This document shows, one piece after another, positions 5,079 to 49,398 of a stretch of 64,000 bases of DNA. Position 1 is the stretch's first letter. The number at the start of each line of letters is the position of its first letter. The DNA is taken from the NCBI RefSeq assembly GCF_014137865.1, contig NZ_JACGWU010000001.1, positions 558,001-622,000 of the forward strand. Reading direction: 5' to 3'. The position numbers and the translations under genes are program-made. The notes below the pieces were generated by a model. That model had not been told where the DNA came from. It searched no databases and saw only the letters and a program-made list of their open reading frames with translations. The DNA is from Alpinimonas psychrophila (GTDB taxonomy: Bacteria > Actinomycetota > Actinomycetes > Actinomycetales > Microbacteriaceae).

Positions 5079-6101
5079 TTAGGCGAAAATAGGGTCGAGG
5101 ACGGCGGCGATCCGCGCGCGAAGCTCAGCTTGCTCAGGGGTTATCGCCACGTCGTAGCCGTGGTCGATCATCCATTCGTCATTAAAGATTTTGCCGAGGT
5201 AGCCGCGTCCACTGTCGGGAAGCAAAGCTACGACAACGTCATCTTTGGTCAGGGCTGCGGCTGCCTTGAGAGCGGCAACCACGGCCATGCCGGATGATCC
5301 GCCGACGAGCAAACCCTCCTCACGGGCAAGGCGACGTGTCATGGCAAAAGATTCAGCATCCGTGACCATGATGACGTCATCGGGCAGGCTCGCGTCGAAG
5401 GCGCCGGGCCAGAAGTCCTCACCGACTCCCTCGACGTTATAACCGTGGATCGGTCCGCCCGAGTAGATGGATCCTTGGGGGTCGGCACCAATGATCGTGA
5501 CGCGGCCGTCCGATGCTTCTTTTAAGAAACGACCGGTGCCGGTGATGGTGCCGCCGGTACCAACCCCCGCGACGAAATGGGTGACTCCGCCATCGGTATC
5601 GTTCCAGATTTCGGGACCGGTGGTGGCGTAGTGGCTCGCAGGTCCGTTGGGGTTGTCATATTGGTTGGGCTTGAAGGCTCCGGGAATCTGCCGGGCGAGA
5701 CGATCCGAGACGGAGTAGTACGATCGCGGATCGCTGGGTTCGACGTTTGTGGGAGTGGAGATAACCTCGGCGCCATAGGCACGCATCGTGTTCTGCTTAT
5801 CGAGGGAGACCTTGTCGGGAACAACGAAGATGGTTTTGTATCCCCGTTGCTGGGCAAAGAGTGCCAGCCCAACGCCCGTGTTGCCCGAAGTTGCCTCGAC
5901 GATGGTGCCGCCCGGCAAGAGAAGGCCGTCGCGCTCGGCAGCATCAAGGATGCGTTCAGCAATGCGATCTTTTGAGGATCCCCCTGGATTCGCGTACTCA
6001 ATTTTGACGAGGATTGTGGCCGTTATTCCTTCGGTGACGGAGGTCAGGCGGACGAGGGGGGTATTGCCGATGGTGCCCGTAATGGCGTGTGAATACTTCA
6101 C
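5079..6101 (-). CDS. Cystathionine beta-synthase-like enzyme lacking the CBS domain pair
   Basis: The 340-residue PLP fold-type II enzyme has the cofactor lysine at residue 44 (GGSSKDR), the substrate loop TSGNTG (71-76) and a glycine-rich phosphate loop (GVGTGGTITG). The segments QYDNPNGPASHY and EGVGEDFWP resemble cystathionine beta-synthase more than O-acetylserine sulfhydrylase. Actinobacterial relatives are usually about 460 residues with a C-terminal pair of CBS domains that senses S-adenosylmethionine; here the chain stops after the catalytic core. It heads a likely operon with the metB-like and dioxygenase genes. It could also be a cysteine synthase. Confidence 0.82.
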   Translation of the reverse strand: MKYSHAITGTIGNTPLVRLTSVTEGITATILVKIEYANPGGSSKDRIAERILDAAERDGLLLPGGTIVEATSGNTGVGLALFAQQRGYKTIFVVPDKVSLDKQNTMRAYGAEVISTPTNVEPSDPRSYYSVSDRLARQIPGAFKPNQYDNPNGPASHYATTGPEIWNDTDGGVTHFVAGVGTGGTITGTGRFLKEASDGRVTIIGADPQGSIYSGGPIHGYNVEGVGEDFWPGAFDASLPDDVIMVTDAESFAMTRRLAREEGLLVGGSSGMAVVAALKAAAALTKDDVVVALLPDSGRGYLGKIFNDEWMIDHGYDVAITPEQAELRARIAAVLDPIFA

Positions 6102-6204
6102 GTAGAGGGTTCCCTAAAGATGAGGGAGAGCATCCCCTGTGAAAGAGGAAACGTCTCGAAATTGTTGTGTGGGGGCGTGCGCTACAGATGGCACGCAAAC
6201 GAAC

Positions 6205-6222
6205 TAGTTCAGTTATGAACTA
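6205..6222. promoter_or_regulatory. Inverted repeat, candidate operator upstream of the CBS-like gene
   Basis: TAGTTCA-GTTA-TGAACTA has perfect 7-base arms around a 4-base spacer. It also overlaps the 10-base palindrome GAACTAGTTC at 6201-6210. It lies about 104 bases upstream of the CBS-like start in a 213-base gap. Size and symmetry suit a dimeric regulator such as a MarR-family protein; the regulator is not in the window. Confidence 0.5.
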
Positions 6223-6303
6223 GAGACAACAACAACAGAGACGAGTGTTTATCACGATGGGGCAACGTTAGCACGAAGCAGCGTGACCCCTTTCGCGGAT
6301 GAT

Positions 6304-6323
6304 GAATTGTTACGTCACAATTC
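6304..6323. promoter_or_regulatory. Palindrome overlapping the monooxygenase stop codon
   Basis: GAATTGT-N6-ACAATTC forms perfect 7-base arms around TACGTC. It covers the TGA of the upstream monooxygenase gene (6315-6317). No U-tract follows on either strand, so a protein-binding site is more likely than a terminator. Confidence 0.4.
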
Positions 6324-7718
6324 CGTCGCGCTACGTGAACTGACGACGGGTTTGCTGACTTTGTATTGATAACCGCGGTGGGCGGGGGCCAGGTGATCAC
6401 CCTTATTGAACAGTTTTTGGCGGAATGTTCCGGTGGCGTATTCGGTCGGGTATACGCCCCGACGTTGGAGTTCAGGGACGATCCACTTCACTATGTCCTC
6501 GAACGTCCCGGGGGTAACGGCGTAGGCCAAGTTGAAGCCGTCGGCATCCGTGAATTCTGCCCACTCTTCGAGCTGGTCGGCAATCTCACCAGGGTCGCCA
6601 ACAATGACGGAGCCGAAACCGCGCACCTTGGAATATTCAGCGATGTCGCGCACGGTCCACTCCCCCGCAGGCTTGTCACCCTCCTGCTGGGCAGCGGCAA
6701 TAGACTGTATGGCGTTTGATTTGATGTTGCCGAGAGGTTCATCGAGATCGAACTCCGAGAGGTCCACACCCATCCAGCCCGACATCAGGACCAGCGCGGC
6801 CTCCGGCGAGGCGTAGTCAAGGTATTCCTGGTGCTTGGCATGCGCCTTCTCGTTCGACTCGTCGACGATGACCGTGAGCATGGCATAGATGCGCGCCGAA
6901 TCACGACCGCGACCGGAGGCTTCGAGGGCTTCGCGAATCTCGGTGACCTGACGAGCCACAATTTCTTTCGTCGGACCCGCAACAAAGATCGCCTCGGCGT
7001 TATCGGCAGCAAACGCGATGCCACGCTTCGACGCTCCTGCCTGGAAAATAACGGGGGTGCGCTGCGGCGAAGGTTCAACCAAGTGAATGCCGGGAACCGT
7101 GAAAAACTCGCCTTTGTGGTTGATGCTGTGCACCTTAGCGGGGTCGGTGTACACGCCGGTCTCGCGGTTGCGAATCACCGCGTCATCTTCCCACGAGCCT
7201 TCCCAGAGTTTGTAGAGCACCTCGAGGTATTCATCGGCATGGGCATAGCGCGCGTCATGCTCGAGCTGATCTTCGTTGCCCATGTTGCGGGCAGCTGAAG
7301 GCAAGTAGCCCGTCACGATATTCCAACCGATGCGACCCTTCGTCAAATGATCCAATGTAGACAGACGGCGGGCGAAAGGGTACGGATGCTCGTAAGAAGT
7401 TCCGGCGGTCACACCGAACCCCAAGTGTTTTGTGGCTGCAGCCATGGCCGACACCACCATCAAGGGATCCGTCACAGGGACCTGTGCGGCGTGAGCGATA
7501 GCGGCATCGTGGTTGCCGCCGTAGACGTCGTAGGTTCCCAACACGTCCGCAATGAAGATGCCGTCAAAGATGCCCTTTTCTAGCAACTGGGCGAGCTCGG
7601 TCCAGTAGTCGATGTCTTTGTAGCGGGACGCTTGGCTGTCGGGGTGGCGCCAGGTTCCCCCGGTGACATGCCCGACGCAGCTCATATCGAAAGCGTTGAA
7701 TCGAATCTGACGGGCCAT
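6315..7718 (-). CDS. FMN-dependent monooxygenase, NtaA/SnaA/DszA family
   Basis: The 467-residue luciferase-like protein shows features of the NtaA/SnaA/SoxA(DszA) group: an N-terminal FNAFDM strand, the TGGTWRHPD region, GRIGWNIVTG in the barrel and QAGASKRGIAFAA toward the flavin site. Such enzymes use FMNH2 from a separate reductase to oxidise nitrilotriacetate, pristinamycin IIB or organic sulfur compounds. Its place between two transsulfuration genes suggests release of sulfur from an organosulfur compound, which is inference from context. No flavin reductase is adjacent; the azoreductase-like gene at 41717 is distant. The ATG is preceded by AAGAGGA about 8 bases upstream. Confidence 0.87.
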   Translation of the reverse strand: MARQIRFNAFDMSCVGHVTGGTWRHPDSQASRYKDIDYWTELAQLLEKGIFDGIFIADVLGTYDVYGGNHDAAIAHAAQVPVTDPLMVVSAMAAATKHLGFGVTAGTSYEHPYPFARRLSTLDHLTKGRIGWNIVTGYLPSAARNMGNEDQLEHDARYAHADEYLEVLYKLWEGSWEDDAVIRNRETGVYTDPAKVHSINHKGEFFTVPGIHLVEPSPQRTPVIFQAGASKRGIAFAADNAEAIFVAGPTKEIVARQVTEIREALEASGRGRDSARIYAMLTVIVDESNEKAHAKHQEYLDYASPEAALVLMSGWMGVDLSEFDLDEPLGNIKSNAIQSIAAAQQEGDKPAGEWTVRDIAEYSKVRGFGSVIVGDPGEIADQLEEWAEFTDADGFNLAYAVTPGTFEDIVKWIVPELQRRGVYPTEYATGTFRQKLFNKGDHLAPAHRGYQYKVSKPVVSSRSATEL

Positions 7719-43531: not shown

Positions 43532-44995
43532 TTATGCTTCGTCGTTACCGTTGGTCAGCTTCGCACGAAGGGCCGCGAGTGCCTCGTCGTCGGCAAGCGT
43601 TCCAGCCGAAGCTGATTCGCTCGAGAACGTGGATGCGTCGCTTGTGCCCGTTGCGATTGCTTCGATCTCGGCTTCGTTGGAAGCCTTGACCTGAATCTTG
43701 TGCTGCTCCCAGCGAGCTTGAGCAGCTGCGTAGTCCAGCTCCCACTTCTCGCGCTGGGTGTCGAAGCCTTCACGCCACTCGTTGGTCTCGGAGTCGAAGC
43801 CCTCGGGGTACTTGTAGTTGCCCGCCTCGTCATACTCTGTGAGCATTCCATAGAGAGCAGGCTCGAACTCGGTACCTTCGGGGTCAACACCGTCGTTAGC
43901 CTGCTTGAGGCTGAGCGAGATGCGGCGACGCTCGAGGTCAATGTCGATGACCTTGACGAATACTTCGTCGCCAACCGAAACAACCTGCTCGGCGAGCTCA
44001 ACGTGCTTGCCGGAGAGCTCGGAGATGTGAACGAGACCTTCGATGCCATCGGCAACGCGAACAAAGGCGCCGAAGGGAACGAGCTTCGTGACCTTACCCG
44101 GAGCAACCTGACCGATTGCGTGGGTGCGGGCGAATACCTGCCAGGGGTCTTCCTGCGTGGCCTTGAGCGACAACGAAACGCGCTCGCGCTCCATGTCGAC
44201 CTCGAGGATCTCGACGGTAACTTCCTGGCCAACTTCAACAACCTCAGAAGCGTGTTCGATGTGCTTCCAGCTGAGCTCAGAAACGTGGACGAGACCGTCA
44301 ACGCCGCCGAGGTCAACGAATGCACCGAAGTTGACGATAGAGGAGACAACACCCTTGCGGATCTGGCCCTTCTGAAGGTTCGTCAGGAACGTGCTGCGGC
44401 TTTCAGACTGAGTCTGCTCGAGGAGGGCGCGACGCGACAGCACAACGTTGTTGCGGTTCTTGTCGAGTTCGAGAATCTTGGCTTCAATTTCTTGGCCAAG
44501 ATAAGGCGTGAGGTCGCGGACGCGACGCAGCTCGATGAGCGATGCGGGAAGGAATCCACGAAGACCGATGTCAACGATAAGTCCACCCTTGACGACCTCG
44601 ATGACCGAACCGGTAACAACACCATCGGACTCTTTGATCTTCTCAACGTCGCCCCATGCACGCTCGTACTGTGCGCGCTTCTTGGACAGGATGAGGCGGC
44701 CTTCCTTGTCCTCCTTCTGGAGAACGAGTGCCTCGATGGTGTCACCAACCTTCACAACCTCATTGGGGTCAACGTCGTGCTTGATCGACAGTTCGCGAGA
44801 GGGGATAACACCCTCGGTCTTGTAACCGACATCGAGGAGAACCTCGTCGCGGTCGATCTTTACAACGGTTCCTTCAATAAGGTCGCCGTCGTTGAAAAAC
44901 TTGAGTGTTGCTTCGACAGCGGCGAGGAAATCCTCAGCCGAGCCGATGTCGTTGATGGCTACCTGTGTGGCTGCCTTTTTTGCTACTAGCGTCAT
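43532..44995 (-). CDS. rpsA: 30S ribosomal protein S1
   Basis: The 487-residue protein contains four S1 RNA-binding domains (from about residues 34, 120, 208 and 293), with VDLGGVDGLVHVSELSWKH in the third and the parallel VRVADGIEGLVHISELSGKH in the fourth. The tail is acidic and low in complexity, as in actinobacterial S1. It binds mRNA on the small ribosomal subunit. The 178 bases upstream contain no obvious autoregulatory structure. Confidence 0.95.
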   Translation of the reverse strand: MTLVAKKAATQVAINDIGSAEDFLAAVEATLKFFNDGDLIEGTVVKIDRDEVLLDVGYKTEGVIPSRELSIKHDVDPNEVVKVGDTIEALVLQKEDKEGRLILSKKRAQYERAWGDVEKIKESDGVVTGSVIEVVKGGLIVDIGLRGFLPASLIELRRVRDLTPYLGQEIEAKILELDKNRNNVVLSRRALLEQTQSESRSTFLTNLQKGQIRKGVVSSIVNFGAFVDLGGVDGLVHVSELSWKHIEHASEVVEVGQEVTVEILEVDMERERVSLSLKATQEDPWQVFARTHAIGQVAPGKVTKLVPFGAFVRVADGIEGLVHISELSGKHVELAEQVVSVGDEVFVKVIDIDLERRRISLSLKQANDGVDPEGTEFEPALYGMLTEYDEAGNYKYPEGFDSETNEWREGFDTQREKWELDYAAAQARWEQHKIQVKASNEAEIEAIATGTSDASTFSSESASAGTLADDEALAALRAKLTNGNDEA

Positions 44996-45173
44996 GTAGA
45001 AACTGCTCCAGTATTAACTTAATTCGGGCCCATCCACACGACCTACGGTCGAGAAAAGTGGAAGGCATACGGATATAACTGCACAAAACGTGCCCTGTTA
45101 GCATAGCCGACCAAAGCCAGTCCCGCGAATGCTCGGTAACTAGTCAGGCTCTTTGGGGTGGCCGACCGTTTCC

Positions 45174-46571
45174 CTAAGCAGCGTGGCTTCGACGGTACTT
45201 TCGCATCAGGACAAGCAGCCCGGCGCCGATAAGCAATGTCAGGACTCCCCCAACGCCCCAAGGCAGAACATCGAATCCGGTGGTTGCCAAAACAGACCCA
45301 ACGGCCGCGTATGCGAACCCGCCCGTGCTCGTCGCCGTGCCACCAGGGGTGGTTACTACAACATTCACGGCGCCTGCAGCATGTGCGGGGCTGGTCACGG
45401 TGATACTTGTCGCCGAGACCACCACCACGCTTGTGCCCGCTACACCGTCAAAGCTGACACCGGTGGCACCGGTGAAGCCTGTACCGGTCAATGTCACTGA
45501 CGTGCCGCCAGCGGCTGGACCGCTAGAGGGCGTGACACCGGTCACTGTCGGTGTGTAACTGGTCATCACCCGATTCCCCGTACCGCTGTCGGCGACGGCA
45601 ACGAGCAGGCCACTCGCATAGGTGACCGAGCCCCAGCTGTTGTCGACGGGGGTGGTGCGGATCGTCCAGGCGATGCCATCAGGGCTGGTCATGACCCGGT
45701 TCCCGGCACCGGTGATGGCGACGGCAACGAACAGGCCACCGCCATAGGTGACCGAGTACCAGGCGTTGTCGGCGGCGCTGGTGCGAGAGGTCCAGGCGAT
45801 GCCATCAGGACTGGTCATGACCCGGTTCCCTGCACCGGTGATGGCGACGGCAACGAACAGGCCACCCGCATAGGTGACCGAGAGCCAACTGTTGTCGACG
45901 GGGGTGGTGCGGATCGTCCAGGCGATGCCATCAGGACTGGTCATCACCCGGTTCCCGGCACCGGTGTAGGCGACGGCAACGAACAGGCCACCGCCATAGG
46001 TGACCGAGTACCAGGCGTTGTCGGCAGCGCTGGTGCGGGTCGTCCAGGTGATGCCGTCAGGGCTGGTCATCACCCGGTTCCCGGTACCGGTGACGGCGAC
46101 GGCAACGAACAGGCCACCGCCATAGGTGACCGAGAGCCAACTGTTGTCGACGGGAGTGGTGCGGATCGTCCAGGTGATGCCGTCAGGACTGGTCATCACC
46201 CGGTTCCCGGTACCGGTGACGGCGACGGCAACGAACAGGCCATTGCCATACGTGACCGAGACCCAGGCGTTGTCGGCAGCGCTGGTGCGGGTCGTCCAGG
46301 TGATGCCATCAGGACTGGTCATCACCCGGTCCCCGGCACCGGTGATGGCGACGGCAACGAACAGGCCACCCCCATACGTCACCGAGCGCCAGCTGTTGTC
46401 GGCGGCGCTGGTGCCGATGACCCAGTCCGTACCTGCCAGAGCCGATGCCGGCGTTGCCGTGCTGACTAAACCAGCCCCGACCACAAGCAGGATCGTCCCA
46501 AGTGCGACTAAACGTTGCGCCCAGCGAGAGCGTCTAACTATGCGACGCGCGCGGCCGGAGGGGGTAATCAT
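45174..46571 (-). CDS. Secreted cell-wall-anchored seven-repeat (beta-propeller) protein with IPT/TIG domain and LATTG signal
   Basis: The 465-residue protein starts with a basic, hydrophobic signal peptide probably cut after PASA near residue 44. Residues 54-347 are seven near-identical 42-residue repeats of the type DNSWxSVTYGGGLFVAVA, ending RVMTSPDGITWTxR. Seven such units suit a closed beta-propeller of the sialidase/BNR-like kind. An IPT/TIG immunoglobulin-like domain follows (about 341-425). The end is a sortase signal: LATTG at 428-432, a hydrophobic helix and a basic tail (RKYRRSHAA); LAxTG is used by class E sortases. The partner or ligand is unknown. It sits between polA and rpsA. 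Confidence 0.85.
   Translation of the reverse strand: MITPSGRARRIVRRSRWAQRLVALGTILLVVGAGLVSTATPASALAGTDWVIGTSAADNSWRSVTYGGGLFVAVAITGAGDRVMTSPDGITWTTRTSAADNAWVSVTYGNGLFVAVAVTGTGNRVMTSPDGITWTIRTTPVDNSWLSVTYGGGLFVAVAVTGTGNRVMTSPDGITWTTRTSAADNAWYSVTYGGGLFVAVAYTGAGNRVMTSPDGIAWTIRTTPVDNSWLSVTYAGGLFVAVAITGAGNRVMTSPDGIAWTSRTSAADNAWYSVTYGGGLFVAVAITGAGNRVMTSPDGIAWTIRTTPVDNSWGSVTYASGLLVAVADSGTGNRVMTSYTPTVTGVTPSSGPAAGGTSVTLTGTGFTGATGVSFDGVAGTSVVVVSATSITVTSPAHAAGAVNVVVTTPGGTATSTGGFAYAAVGSVLATTGFDVLPWGVGGVLTLLIGAGLLVLMRKYRRSHAA
45531..46412 (-). repeat. Seven tandem 126-base coding repeats
   Basis: The repeats encode the seven propeller blades. Two sub-types alternate, one beginning TSAADNAW and one TTPVDNSW, so blades 2-3, 4-5 and 6-7 form a 252-base higher-order unit. 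Some copies differ by only a few bases over 100, which points to recent duplication or gene conversion and to possible copy-number variation. Confidence 0.9.
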
Positions 46572-46581
46572 GTGCTCTAAA

Positions 46582-46608
46582 CTAGCAGGCTCGATCCCTC
46601 CTTGCTAG
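46582..46608 (-). promoter_or_regulatory. Hairpin holding a Shine-Dalgarno far upstream of the propeller gene
   Basis: On the minus strand CTAGCAAGG and CCTGCTAG form an 8-pair stem with one bulged A. The best ribosome-binding sequence (AAGGAGGG, 46596-46603) lies partly in this stem and 24 bases from the ATG, too far for normal use. A TAGTTT box (46579-46584) 7 bases before the ATG offers a leaderless alternative. Confidence 0.4.
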
Positions 46609-46617
46609 AAAGTCCCT

Positions 46618-46637
46618 AGGGCCTTTTCAAAGGCCCT
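46618..46637 (-). terminator. Hairpin after polA
   Basis: AGGGCCTT and AAGGCCCT form an 8-pair stem with a TGAA loop, 13 bases after the polA stop. No U-run follows, so it may be a weak terminator or an mRNA-stabilising end before the propeller gene. Confidence 0.45.
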
Positions 46638-46650
46638 GCAAACTAGCGAA

Positions 46651-49398
46651 TTAGTGCGCTGCTTCGTTCCAGTTCTGGCCTTTGCCGACTTGAACATCCA
46701 GCGGAACGCTCAGTTTGGCGGCGTTCTCCATGCGATCGACGACGAGCTTCTCGACGACGTCCCATTCTCCCTCGAATACTTCGAGCACGAGTTCGTCGTG
46801 TACTTGAAGGAGCAGGCGTGACTTGAGATCGAGGTTGGCAATGTCTTGTTCAATACCGAACATCGCAATCTTCATGATGTCGGCGGCAGTCCCTTGCATG
46901 GGGGCATTCAAAGCTGCGCGTTCGGCGTTGTCACGAAGCACGCGGTTGGGGCTGGCGAGATCTGGGAACGGACGGCGGCGGCCGAAAAGAGTCTCCGTGT
47001 AGCCCTTGATGCGAGCATCTTCGACGACGCTGCGCAGGTAATCGCGCACTCCCCCGAATCGCTCGAAGTAATCAGACATCAGTTTCTTGGCGGCACCGTT
47101 GTCAATTTTTAACTGCTTGGCCAGACCGAAGGCGCTCAGTCCATAGGCCAGCCCGTAGCTCATGGCCTTGACATGTGAGCGCATGTCGCCCGTGACGTCT
47201 TCGGGAGCAACGCCGTAGATTTGCGATCCCACAAAACGGTGCAGGTCTTCGCCAGACTTGAAAGCCTCGATCAGCCCGGCATCCTTGGAGAAGTGCGCCA
47301 TGATGCGCATTTCAATCTGGGAATAGTCGGCGGTCAATAGCGTTTGAAAACCGACCCCCACCTCAAATGCTTCACGGATGCGGCGTCCGTCGGCGGCGCG
47401 CACGGGAATGTTTTGCAGGTTGGGATTGATCGAGGAAAGGCGACCCGTGCTCGTGCCGGTCTGTACATACGTCGTGTGGATGCGGTGGTCGCTGCCGATC
47501 GCGGTGTCGAGGGATTCCACAATCTGACGAAGTTTGGTGACATCGCGGTGTTCCAGAAGATATCCCAAGAACGGATGGGGACTCTTTTCCTGGAGGTCAA
47601 CGAGCGCCGCAGCATCCGTGGTGTAACCGGTCTTGGTGGCCCGGGTTTTGGGCATGTTCAACTGATCAAAGAGAACCTCTTGGAGTTGCTTGGGAGAAGC
47701 GAGGTTTACCTCTTTGCCAATTTCGGCGTAGGCGCTGGTCGCTGCGGCCGCAGCGCGATCGCCGAGCTCGGTGCTGAGAGCCGAGAGCTTCTCGTGGCTG
47801 ACGGTCACACCGCGCAGTTCCATAGCGGCAAGAGCCACGAGGGTGGGGATTTCAATTTCGAGCAAAAGGGCCAGAGATCCGGCATCGAGTTGCAAACGGA
47901 TGGCCTTCGACAGGCGCTCTACCAGCCAGGCATGTCCGGCGGCGCCGAGTTCATCTTCCTCGGGAACAAGTTGATTGGGGTCTGGCGTCGACAGGGTCTC
48001 ACCGAGGTAGAGACCAACGAGTTCGGACAACTCGCGCTTAGAGGAGTCTGGCCGAATGATCCAATCTGCAATCTCCGTGTCGAATGCCATACCAGCTACA
48101 GGGATGCCGGCGGCAGCAAGAGTCTTTATCTGCTGCTTGGCCCCGTGCATGAGCTTGGGGCTGGGACCGGCCAGCCAGTGCACCAAGGGAGCCATATCGG
48201 CATGACCTGGCGAGAAAGGCACGAACGCCGTTTCCATTTCTGTGGCCAGCCCAAAGCCAGCAATCCCACTGGCGTAACTTTCCACGACAACGGCGACACC
48301 CAGCGGTGCGGCGTCTGTAGCGCGCTCGAGCCAGCCACGCAGTTCCTCGTCGAGAAGGTTTTGCGTGCGCGGTGCTACGCGGACCGGGTTTAGTTCTTCG
48401 GGCATCGTAGGGGCGGAATATGCGGACGCCGAGGTCGAAGACCCGTCGGAGGTTTTTGCCGCTGAGACAGCGGCGCCGGATGCGGGGAAAGAATCGGCCG
48501 ACGGAGCTCCCCCGCCGAGCTTGATCACCCGCTCCAGCAACGAGCGAAACTCGAGACGGCCAAAAACTTCGCGCACCGCATCGAGGTCAAAAGCATTGCG
48601 CTCAAGGTCGTCAGGCAGAACGGGAAGCTCGACGTCGGTTACGAGGTGATTGAGGCGACGGTTGCGAACAGCATTTTCGGAGTGCTCGCGCAGGCTCTCG
48701 CCAACCTTGCCACCGATCTCATCGGCGCGGCGCAGAATTTCATCGAGAGATCCATACTCGTTCAACCATTTGACGGCTGTCTTCTCGCCGACCTTCGGAA
48801 TGCCGGGAAGATTATCGCTCGTTTCCCCTACGAGAGCAGCGACCTCGGGGTACTGGTGGGGCTGAACGCCGTACCGCTCAAATACTTTTTCAGCGTCGTA
48901 ACGAGTGAGCTCGGCAACCCCTTGTTTTGAGGGGTATAACAGTGTGACGTTGTGATCGATCAGTTGGATGGTGTCGCGGTCCCCCGAGACGACCAATACT
49001 TTGTAGCCGGCGGCTGAACCCTGGTGTGAGAGCGTCGCCAGAATGTCATCCGCCTCGAAGTCCTCTTTGGTGATGGTGGTAATCCCCATGGCGTGAAGAG
49101 CATCCTGCAAAAGGGGAACCTGGCCAATGAACTCGGGCGGAGTCTCGCCACGGGTTCCCTTATATTCCGCATACTCGCGCGTTCGAAACGAATAGCGCGA
49201 GATATCGAAGGCAACCCCGAGGTGCGTGGGCTTCTCTTTGGCCAGCAGGTTTAGGAGCATGGAGATGAAACCGTGGATGGCGTTTGTGTGCTGGCCATCG
49301 CGCGTCTTGAAACTGTCGAGGGGAAGCGCATAAAACGCCCGGAATGCGAGTGAATGCCCGTCGATGAGCATGAGGGTAGGCTGTTCGCTAGTGGTCAC
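46651..49398 (-). CDS. polA: DNA polymerase I
   Basis: The 915-residue enzyme has an N-terminal 5'-nuclease domain (about 1-300), a 3'-5' exonuclease-like domain (about 330-510) and the polymerase domain with TADYSQIEMR and QVHDELVLE. In the exonuclease-like part the first metal-binding motif (DTE in E. coli) reads VVES, so proofreading is probably lost, as in other actinobacteria. The start is GTG. It repairs DNA and replaces Okazaki primers. It is divergent from the thioesterase gene with 55 bases between them. Confidence 0.96.
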   Translation of the reverse strand: MTTSEQPTLMLIDGHSLAFRAFYALPLDSFKTRDGQHTNAIHGFISMLLNLLAKEKPTHLGVAFDISRYSFRTREYAEYKGTRGETPPEFIGQVPLLQDALHAMGITTITKEDFEADDILATLSHQGSAAGYKVLVVSGDRDTIQLIDHNVTLLYPSKQGVAELTRYDAEKVFERYGVQPHQYPEVAALVGETSDNLPGIPKVGEKTAVKWLNEYGSLDEILRRADEIGGKVGESLREHSENAVRNRRLNHLVTDVELPVLPDDLERNAFDLDAVREVFGRLEFRSLLERVIKLGGGAPSADSFPASGAAVSAAKTSDGSSTSASAYSAPTMPEELNPVRVAPRTQNLLDEELRGWLERATDAAPLGVAVVVESYASGIAGFGLATEMETAFVPFSPGHADMAPLVHWLAGPSPKLMHGAKQQIKTLAAAGIPVAGMAFDTEIADWIIRPDSSKRELSELVGLYLGETLSTPDPNQLVPEEDELGAAGHAWLVERLSKAIRLQLDAGSLALLLEIEIPTLVALAAMELRGVTVSHEKLSALSTELGDRAAAAATSAYAEIGKEVNLASPKQLQEVLFDQLNMPKTRATKTGYTTDAAALVDLQEKSPHPFLGYLLEHRDVTKLRQIVESLDTAIGSDHRIHTTYVQTGTSTGRLSSINPNLQNIPVRAADGRRIREAFEVGVGFQTLLTADYSQIEMRIMAHFSKDAGLIEAFKSGEDLHRFVGSQIYGVAPEDVTGDMRSHVKAMSYGLAYGLSAFGLAKQLKIDNGAAKKLMSDYFERFGGVRDYLRSVVEDARIKGYTETLFGRRRPFPDLASPNRVLRDNAERAALNAPMQGTAADIMKIAMFGIEQDIANLDLKSRLLLQVHDELVLEVFEGEWDVVEKLVVDRMENAAKLSVPLDVQVGKGQNWNEAAH

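Follow-up and report, generated by a model that had tools for sequence, protein, structure and literature searches.

In Alpinimonas psychrophila (GCF_014137865.1), a 64 kb stretch of DNA (NZ_JACGWU010000001.1, positions 558,001-622,000; hereafter the window, to which all coordinates refer) contains a gene for a secreted protein that is probably a displayed, non-catalytic binding head. By prediction, this head is a closed β-propeller of seven short-Asp-box blades, in which three positions per blade vary from blade to blade. The fold, the modules, the insertion of the gene, the relatives in other display systems and the site variation were computed; attachment to the wall, binding and the class of ligand are what we infer from them. 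A preliminary description had noted a signal peptide, seven 42-residue repeats, an IPT/TIG domain and a LATTG-helix-basic tail, and all of these are seen in the 465-aa open reading frame (Table 1). Beyond that description, the analysis revealed a period-two order of the blades, the three variable positions in each blade and relatives both on viral contigs and in other phyla.

Table 1. Features of the propeller gene and its surroundings (window positions).
Feature	Position	Strand	Basis
DNA polymerase I (polA), neighbour, same strand	46651-49398	-	PF00476, 1.1e-139
Hairpin close behind polA and ahead of the inserted propeller gene, a possible terminator of polA	46618..46637	-	stem AGGGCCUU/AAGGCCCU
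Propeller gene, full length; secreted surface protein of 465 aa, sortase type	45174..46571	-	ORF list; one match in the own genome
Signal peptide (residues 1-46): basic N-region, then a hydrophobic core and ATPASALA	46434..46571	-	judged by eye from sequence
Velcro strand at the N-terminus (residues 47-58, GTDWVIGTSAAD), by which blade 7 is completed	46398..46433	-	sequence register; strand predicted at fragment residues 8-10
Six complete short-Asp-box repeats of 42 residues (blades 1-6, residues 59-310), with blade types in the order A B A B A B	45642..46397	-	repeat register, model, blade comparison
Blade 7, inner three strands only, residues 311-338	45558..45641	-	repeat register and model
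IPT/TIG Ig-like domain, residues 341-421	45309..45551	-	PF01833, E 6.8e-13
Sorting signal of class E type (residues 428-465): LATTG, then a hydrophobic helix and a basic tail	45177..45290	-	sequence
Four-S1-domain protein as expected of rpsA, neighbour, same strand	43532-44995	-	PF00575, 1.7e-81

The gene is present in a single copy in its own genome, its frame is intact with no stop, and its GC content is 0.648 (window, 0.582). The blades start at residues 59, 101, 143, 185, 227, 269 and 311, with a spacing of exactly 42; at the DNA level, Tandem Repeats Finder scored the array 1242 at a period of 126 bp and 1386 at 252 bp, and at its default threshold it found no other tandem array in the 64 kb window. 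Only the first 28 residues of blade 7 are present before the TIG domain begins, the Asp-box loop and the outer strand being missing. The N-terminal stretch GTDWVIGTSAAD resembles this missing outer part, in the manner of the usual Velcro closure of a seventh blade. The IPT/TIG domain belongs to PF01833 by score (48.9 bits, gathering score 20.9), with low AlphaFold2 confidence in this part (blocks with pLDDT of 60 or below), and the protein ends in LATTGFDVLPWGVGGVLTLLIGAGLLVLMRKYRRSHAA, which comprises LATTG, a hydrophobic stretch and RKYRRSHAA.

A single-sequence AlphaFold model was rejected (pLDDT 48.7). The AlphaFold2 model of residues 44-428 was built on an alignment of 67 rows, the window protein and the 66 of 72 relative segments that passed the filter (L033, L047, L075, L132, L129 and L134 being left out), and it reached a mean pLDDT of 86.2 and a pTM of 0.83. 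In this model the propeller, with pLDDT 94-99 in 28 of 30 ten-residue blocks and 80 and 81 in the first and last ones, is a closed ring of seven blades, each with four strands (positions 3-9, 12-17, 25-28 and 35-37 in blade 1), so that the protein is a β-propeller by prediction. The closest solved fold by Z score is virginiamycin B lyase, 2z2o (Z 33.2, rmsd 2.3, 279 aligned residues, 12% identity), itself a seven-bladed ring; nvWrap-T, titled a seven-bladed symmetric propeller, was matched at Z 27.8, and Ycf48 was the best Foldseek match in the PDB. The closed seven-bladed propeller suggested in the preliminary description is thus borne out both by a model that closes and by seven-bladed rings among the nearest solved folds. 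DUF6242 (PF19755) was matched barely over its gathering cut-off (31.5 bits, cut-off 29); membership was not adopted, and this match, like those of the repeats to the EPTP, DUF4982, MHC and rhabdovirus Pfam families, was read as propeller-repeat similarity, whilst phmmer matches in the PDB to designed beta-trefoils were read as chance repeat matches.

The Asp-box, SxDxGxxW, and the short Asp-box (s-Asp-box), SxDxxxW, with one residue less, lie between strands 3 and 4 in propellers (Quistgaard and Thirup, PMC2716378). In the window protein the motif SPDGxxW occurs in all six complete blades at positions 28-34, between strand C (25-28) and strand D (35-37) of the model, that is, in the hairpin between the outer strands 3 and 4, which places the protein among the s-Asp-box propellers. 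It is one residue shorter than the canonical SxDxGxTW, a form found as STDDGVSW in a relative of 44% identity (L197). The hairpin repeated between strands 3 and 4, together with the Foldseek match to Ycf48, is what the protein shares with Asp-box propellers such as Ycf48, sortilin and sialidases, from which it differs by the shorter motif in every complete blade, by the near-identity of its blades, by three hypervariable positions and by a predicted wall anchor.

These three positions emerged from 219 gap-free blade units of 57 proteins, 24 of them with four or more units. The pattern by which units were picked fixes positions 3, 30, 31 and 34 and restricts 5, 6 and 28, and conservation at these positions is therefore partly by construction. 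When blades were compared in pairs within each of the 24 proteins, the residues differed at position 2 in 0.78, at position 4 in 0.80 and at position 18 in 0.81 of the pairs; positions 36 (0.58) and 19 (0.57) came next, and all others were at 0.40 or below. Positions 2, 4 and 18 were chosen on the same data on which they were tested, and the split sets agree, the same three ranking first in 21 genome-derived and in 15 virus-derived proteins (three or more units each) analysed apart. At the three codons, first- and second-base differences amounted to 0.61, against 0.38 at fourfold sites. Of the 36 proteins that had at least three units, 28 showed this excess over synonymous change (sign test, 0.0012), 14/15 being virus-derived and 14/21 genome-derived, and in the other 8 it failed; five other positions, taken as a control, gave an excess in 7/36, position 19 alone in 23/36 and position 36 alone in 18/36. 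A single virus contig carries two of the proteins, L078 and L090, which have no identical blade unit in common; without L090 the same three positions ranked first and the excess was found in 27/35 proteins.

In the window copy, positions 2, 4 and 18 differ in 0.73 of the blade pairs, the remaining positions in 0.12 and fourfold sites in 0.13, with a saturation of 0.68 expected from the codon use of five window genes. From blade 1 to blade 7, one reads S A S A S A S at position 2, R V L Y L Y G at position 4 and I V V Y I I D at position 18, position 2 being S or A only. According to the predicted strands, positions 2 and 4 lie at the start of the inner strand 1 and position 18 just after strand 2, which would put all three on the top face as defined in PMC2716378. 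In that paper, the top face of Asp-box propellers, made up of the N-terminal part of the inner strands and of loop 2-3, is described as extremely variable and as the sole face serving function in those known in 2009, the Asp-box face being structural; variation on the top face is a further likeness of the window protein to this group. In the single close orthologue pair examined (L111 and L115), 5 of 21 variable positions differed as against 22 of 265 others (Fisher p 0.036); positions 2, 4 and 18 are thus mostly kept, which counts against rapid ongoing change.

Blades 1-6 of the window protein are 74-98% identical in pairwise amino acid comparisons, a level typical of recently amplified propellers (median blade identity over 60%). 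For each of the six, the best DNA match lies inside its own protein (0.90-0.97, against 0.73-0.79 in the other proteins compared), and with the variable codons masked the best match was within the same protein for 113 of 156 units from 24 proteins. In six nucleotide columns all odd blades share one base and all even blades another, and the other nine ways of splitting the blades 3+3 gave at most one such column; the array therefore looks, and is likely, to have been amplified from a two-blade unit of 84 residues (252 bp). This reading is based on six blades, with the parity split as the best of 10 and 0.1 (72/720) as the smallest share that a permutation can give. High internal identity, with 6/6 blades closer to each other than to outside ones, is shared with the recently amplified propellers of Pereira and Lupas (2022, PMC9218822), from most of which the window protein differs by its two-blade look: that paper reports such amplification once, for a 47-bladed NACHT protein of a fungus, and the present array would likely be a second case. 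The same source reports independent re-amplification in close relatives and puts the Asp-box group at up to 5% of its recently amplified set.

The preliminary description had regarded the gene as an accessory insertion, and the comparison of genomes supports this. In the only same-genus genome compared (G001, 87% complete), the gap between polA and rpsA is 196 bp and holds no propeller, while the end of polA up to its stop and a block upstream of rpsA, to about 45108, are conserved; the gene thus looks like an accessory one set between the two. A scan of 44950-46750 found no promoter, so that what could be taken for an rpsA promoter is merely a conserved upstream block. The same scan gave 6 terminator-like matches, 4 of them inside the repeats; the hairpin behind polA is a doubtful terminator, with a z-score of -1.55 for the 63-nt stretch and 15 of 200 shuffles folding equally well. 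A search of 59 genomes matched 17 others, all from query residue 315 on, that is, on the TIG side and not in the blade array. Of 30 relatives, 9 had polA within the locus, at a polA-rpsA gap of 122-1210 bp, whereas 21 had it more than ~1.5 kb away or on a contig that broke off before it. When 398 genomes of the family were searched for the propeller at a threshold of 1e-10, there were 4 with a match, the own genome included, the others being G240 (68%), G327 (44%) and G283 (30%). In the G240 protein, a hydrophobic stretch at the N-terminus is followed by seven blade starts and an LAATG-helix-basic tail, with no TIG match in Pfam; neither polA nor rpsA was found within 6 kb around its gene, and no class E sortase was found in this genome (82% complete) or in G327. 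Close to this gene, on the minus strand, lies another one (L199, 4350-5360) for a secreted-looking protein with a C-terminal LVNTG-helix-basic tail. In G283, a frame of 1062 aa (L198) has 19 matches to a loose canonical Asp-box pattern and an N-terminus that is prepilin-like by eye.

Alternatively, the window protein could be a young repeat protein that has not yet settled on a function: a recently amplified propeller that a secretion and anchor cassette has captured, and that is drifting and may soon be lost. The high identity of the window blades, the absence of the gene from the same-genus genome and the restriction of position 2 to S or A would all suit such a protein, as would the non-trivial number of disrupted propellers among the recently amplified ones reported in PMC9218822. 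We nevertheless judge it unlikely: the frame is intact, an LAATG propeller recurs in another genus, and unselected drift would not yield a scaffold that varies as little as fourfold sites do next to positions 2, 4 and 18 that vary several times more.

Relatives of the propeller are widespread, with identities of the aligned propellers of up to 77%. The genome scan gave 59 pattern matches in 40 loci, 8 of them labelled Actinomycetota and the other 32 carrying labels such as Bacteroidota, Verrucomicrobia, Acidobacteria, Patescibacteria and Proteobacteria; phyla were read from record titles, many records are MAGs and some labels look doubtful. The viral scan gave 89 matches and 83 relatives, of which 80 were kept, in 76 loci; of all 117 loci (L033-L149), 8 were dropped for having no ORF with two motifs. 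Some loci are copies of one contig stretch (L076/L077, L078-L080, L084/L085, L090-L092, L095/L096 and L102-L104). When SPDGxxW-like motifs were counted in 66 distinct closed ORFs, six was the most frequent number (23/66), which is the expectation for seven blades with a Velcro strand; five motifs were present in 14 ORFs and twelve or thirteen in 5, the rest ranging from 2 to 19. Among proteins picked for their C-termini, the propeller is joined to T9SS sorting domains (L034, L035 and L036 over the cut-off, L042 below it), to IPTL-CTERM (L045), to OmpA (L046) and to a BspA-type LRR (L052). Nine proteins of viral contigs were scanned as well: L112 and L118 have strong matches to tail families, L095 matches a baseplate wedge family weakly (1.2e-6) and, besides, a family whose function is unknown, as do the families matched by L084 and L087 lack an assigned function; L109 resembles an amidase family and L094 a minor head protein, and L081 has no match. 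An HNH endonuclease PHROG on L074 was discarded, the match arising through the repeats. No description of this propeller with its variable positions was found in the open-licence papers searched. In Synechococcus phage B23 (MN695335.1), at 6001-6870 (L033), an open propeller frame of 323 codons faces two hypothetical genes recorded on the opposite strand, and it looks as though the propeller gene was missed in the annotation.

With so many viral copies, the window protein might have been captured from a phage, where it served as a receptor-binding head, or it might act as a decoy or shield by competing with phages for one ligand. The 76 loci on viral contigs, the tail domains within the same polypeptide in L112 and L118 and, weakly, in L095, the B23 propeller at 53% identity and the first viral structure match (an auto-processing chaperone-domain protein of a Caudovirales phage) are in line with it; a Hokovirus collagen-repeat protein was also among the first viral model matches. 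Against this, the ORFs of the 40-51 kb region, read by eye, include no recognised phage gene, and T9SS sorting domains mark the top three loci from the genome scan as bacterial surface proteins; we hold this reading to be rather unlikely.

Display on the wall is predicted from the C-terminus and from the sortases of the genome. The preliminary description had called for a class E sortase, and one is there: of two PF04203 sortases, L002 scores 203.4 bits on NF033747 (curated cut-off 160) and has one Cys, in ITITTCNPLLG. The protein has what a class E substrate needs (LAxTG, a hydrophobic segment, a positive tail and a class E sortase in the genome) and is predicted to be linked to the cell wall through LATTG; LAXTG is the signal of class E sortases in soil and freshwater Actinobacteria (PMC5148588). 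LATTG, helix, basic tail and sortase are shared with the class E substrates there treated, the Streptomyces chaplins, from which the window protein differs by its cargo, a propeller, and by a sorting that is predicted from sequence. A Propionibacteriaceae assembly has a 71% identical tail on a secreted protein that is unrelated (L073), so that the sorting signal appears as a shared module. The sortase is not tied to the propeller gene, since G001, with no propeller at the locus, has a class E sortase too (207.4 bits). NF058582 (LAVTG surface proteins) scored below its threshold of 27 (17.5 bits; 22.8 in the genome search), and this family and a three-row tail alignment gave no second convincing LAxTG substrate in the own genome: the weak tail matches inspected were rejected for having no L[AP]xTG tail (L184, L185, L186) or for ending like ordinary membrane proteins (L201 and L184). 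The second sortase, L003, stays below the class E cut-off (60.1 bits on NF033747). This protein (844-2127, own genome C1 near 95,400) is sortase-like, has no cysteine, lies just upstream of a gene for an ABC-transporter ATPase (PF00005, of the phosphate type by reading) and is probably not a working transpeptidase; the same-genus genome has a sortase-like match (L207) of about the same score.

As a displayed binding head, the secreted protein would consist of a closed seven-bladed short-Asp-box propeller carried on one Ig-like TIG domain and linked to the wall by the class E sortase through LATTG. The near-invariant frame would present three residues per blade (2, 4 and 18), hence 21 altogether, on the top face around the central channel, and it is their differences from blade to blade that may set the ligand, which could be a polysaccharide, another cell or the surface of a particle. 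The same frame would be reused across bacteria and phages, each time joined to the local display system, the window copy having been built by amplification of a two-blade unit as an accessory between polA and the rpsA block. The preliminary description knew no function, and none was found described. A wider reading, which we put forward only tentatively and hold to be somewhat doubtful, is that nature uses the SPDGITWT propeller as a general-purpose scaffold for binding, much as it does repeat-based receptors: a seven-blade frame that stays fixed and offers ~21 selectable top-face residues, which spreads between phyla and phages, is re-amplified locally, is plugged into the surface or tail attachment of each lineage and shifts its specificity by blade swapping. 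If so, one frame with three variable positions per blade, common to bacterial surfaces and phage tails, would be what designed repeat binders have as their counterpart in nature, with a blade code open to direct testing on glycan and cell-binding arrays.

An enzyme, for instance a lyase like Vgb or an Asp-box glycosidase, is suggested by the closest fold and by the statement in PMC2716378 that glycosidases are the majority of the medically important Asp-box propeller proteins. Such a function is very improbable because the 294-residue propeller contains no C, E, H, K or Q. Likeness to virginiamycin B lyase ends with the seven-bladed ring: identity is low, and the title of 2z2p, a catalytically inactive H270A mutant of Vgb, indicates that its chemistry needs a histidine, which the window propeller lacks.

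That the variable codons are rewritten by a diversity-generating retroelement, as the constant NNC codons at position 4 of the window copy and the invariant third bases of L074 (see below) might suggest, can be dismissed as extremely improbable, with no RVT_1 match in the own genome (0/1; 97.5% complete) or in 50 records with relatives (0/50; 49 virus records, possibly fragments, and phage B23), with blade DNA that matches, in the own genome, just its own array and short partial stretches, and with codons such as CAA, CAG and AAA at the variable positions of relatives. In L074 (5028-6227 of a viral contig of 27.7 kb with no reverse transcriptase), the three variable codons of seven units vary at the first and second bases (0.65 and 0.60) and never at the third (0.00), whilst fourfold sites elsewhere in the gene do vary (0.21).
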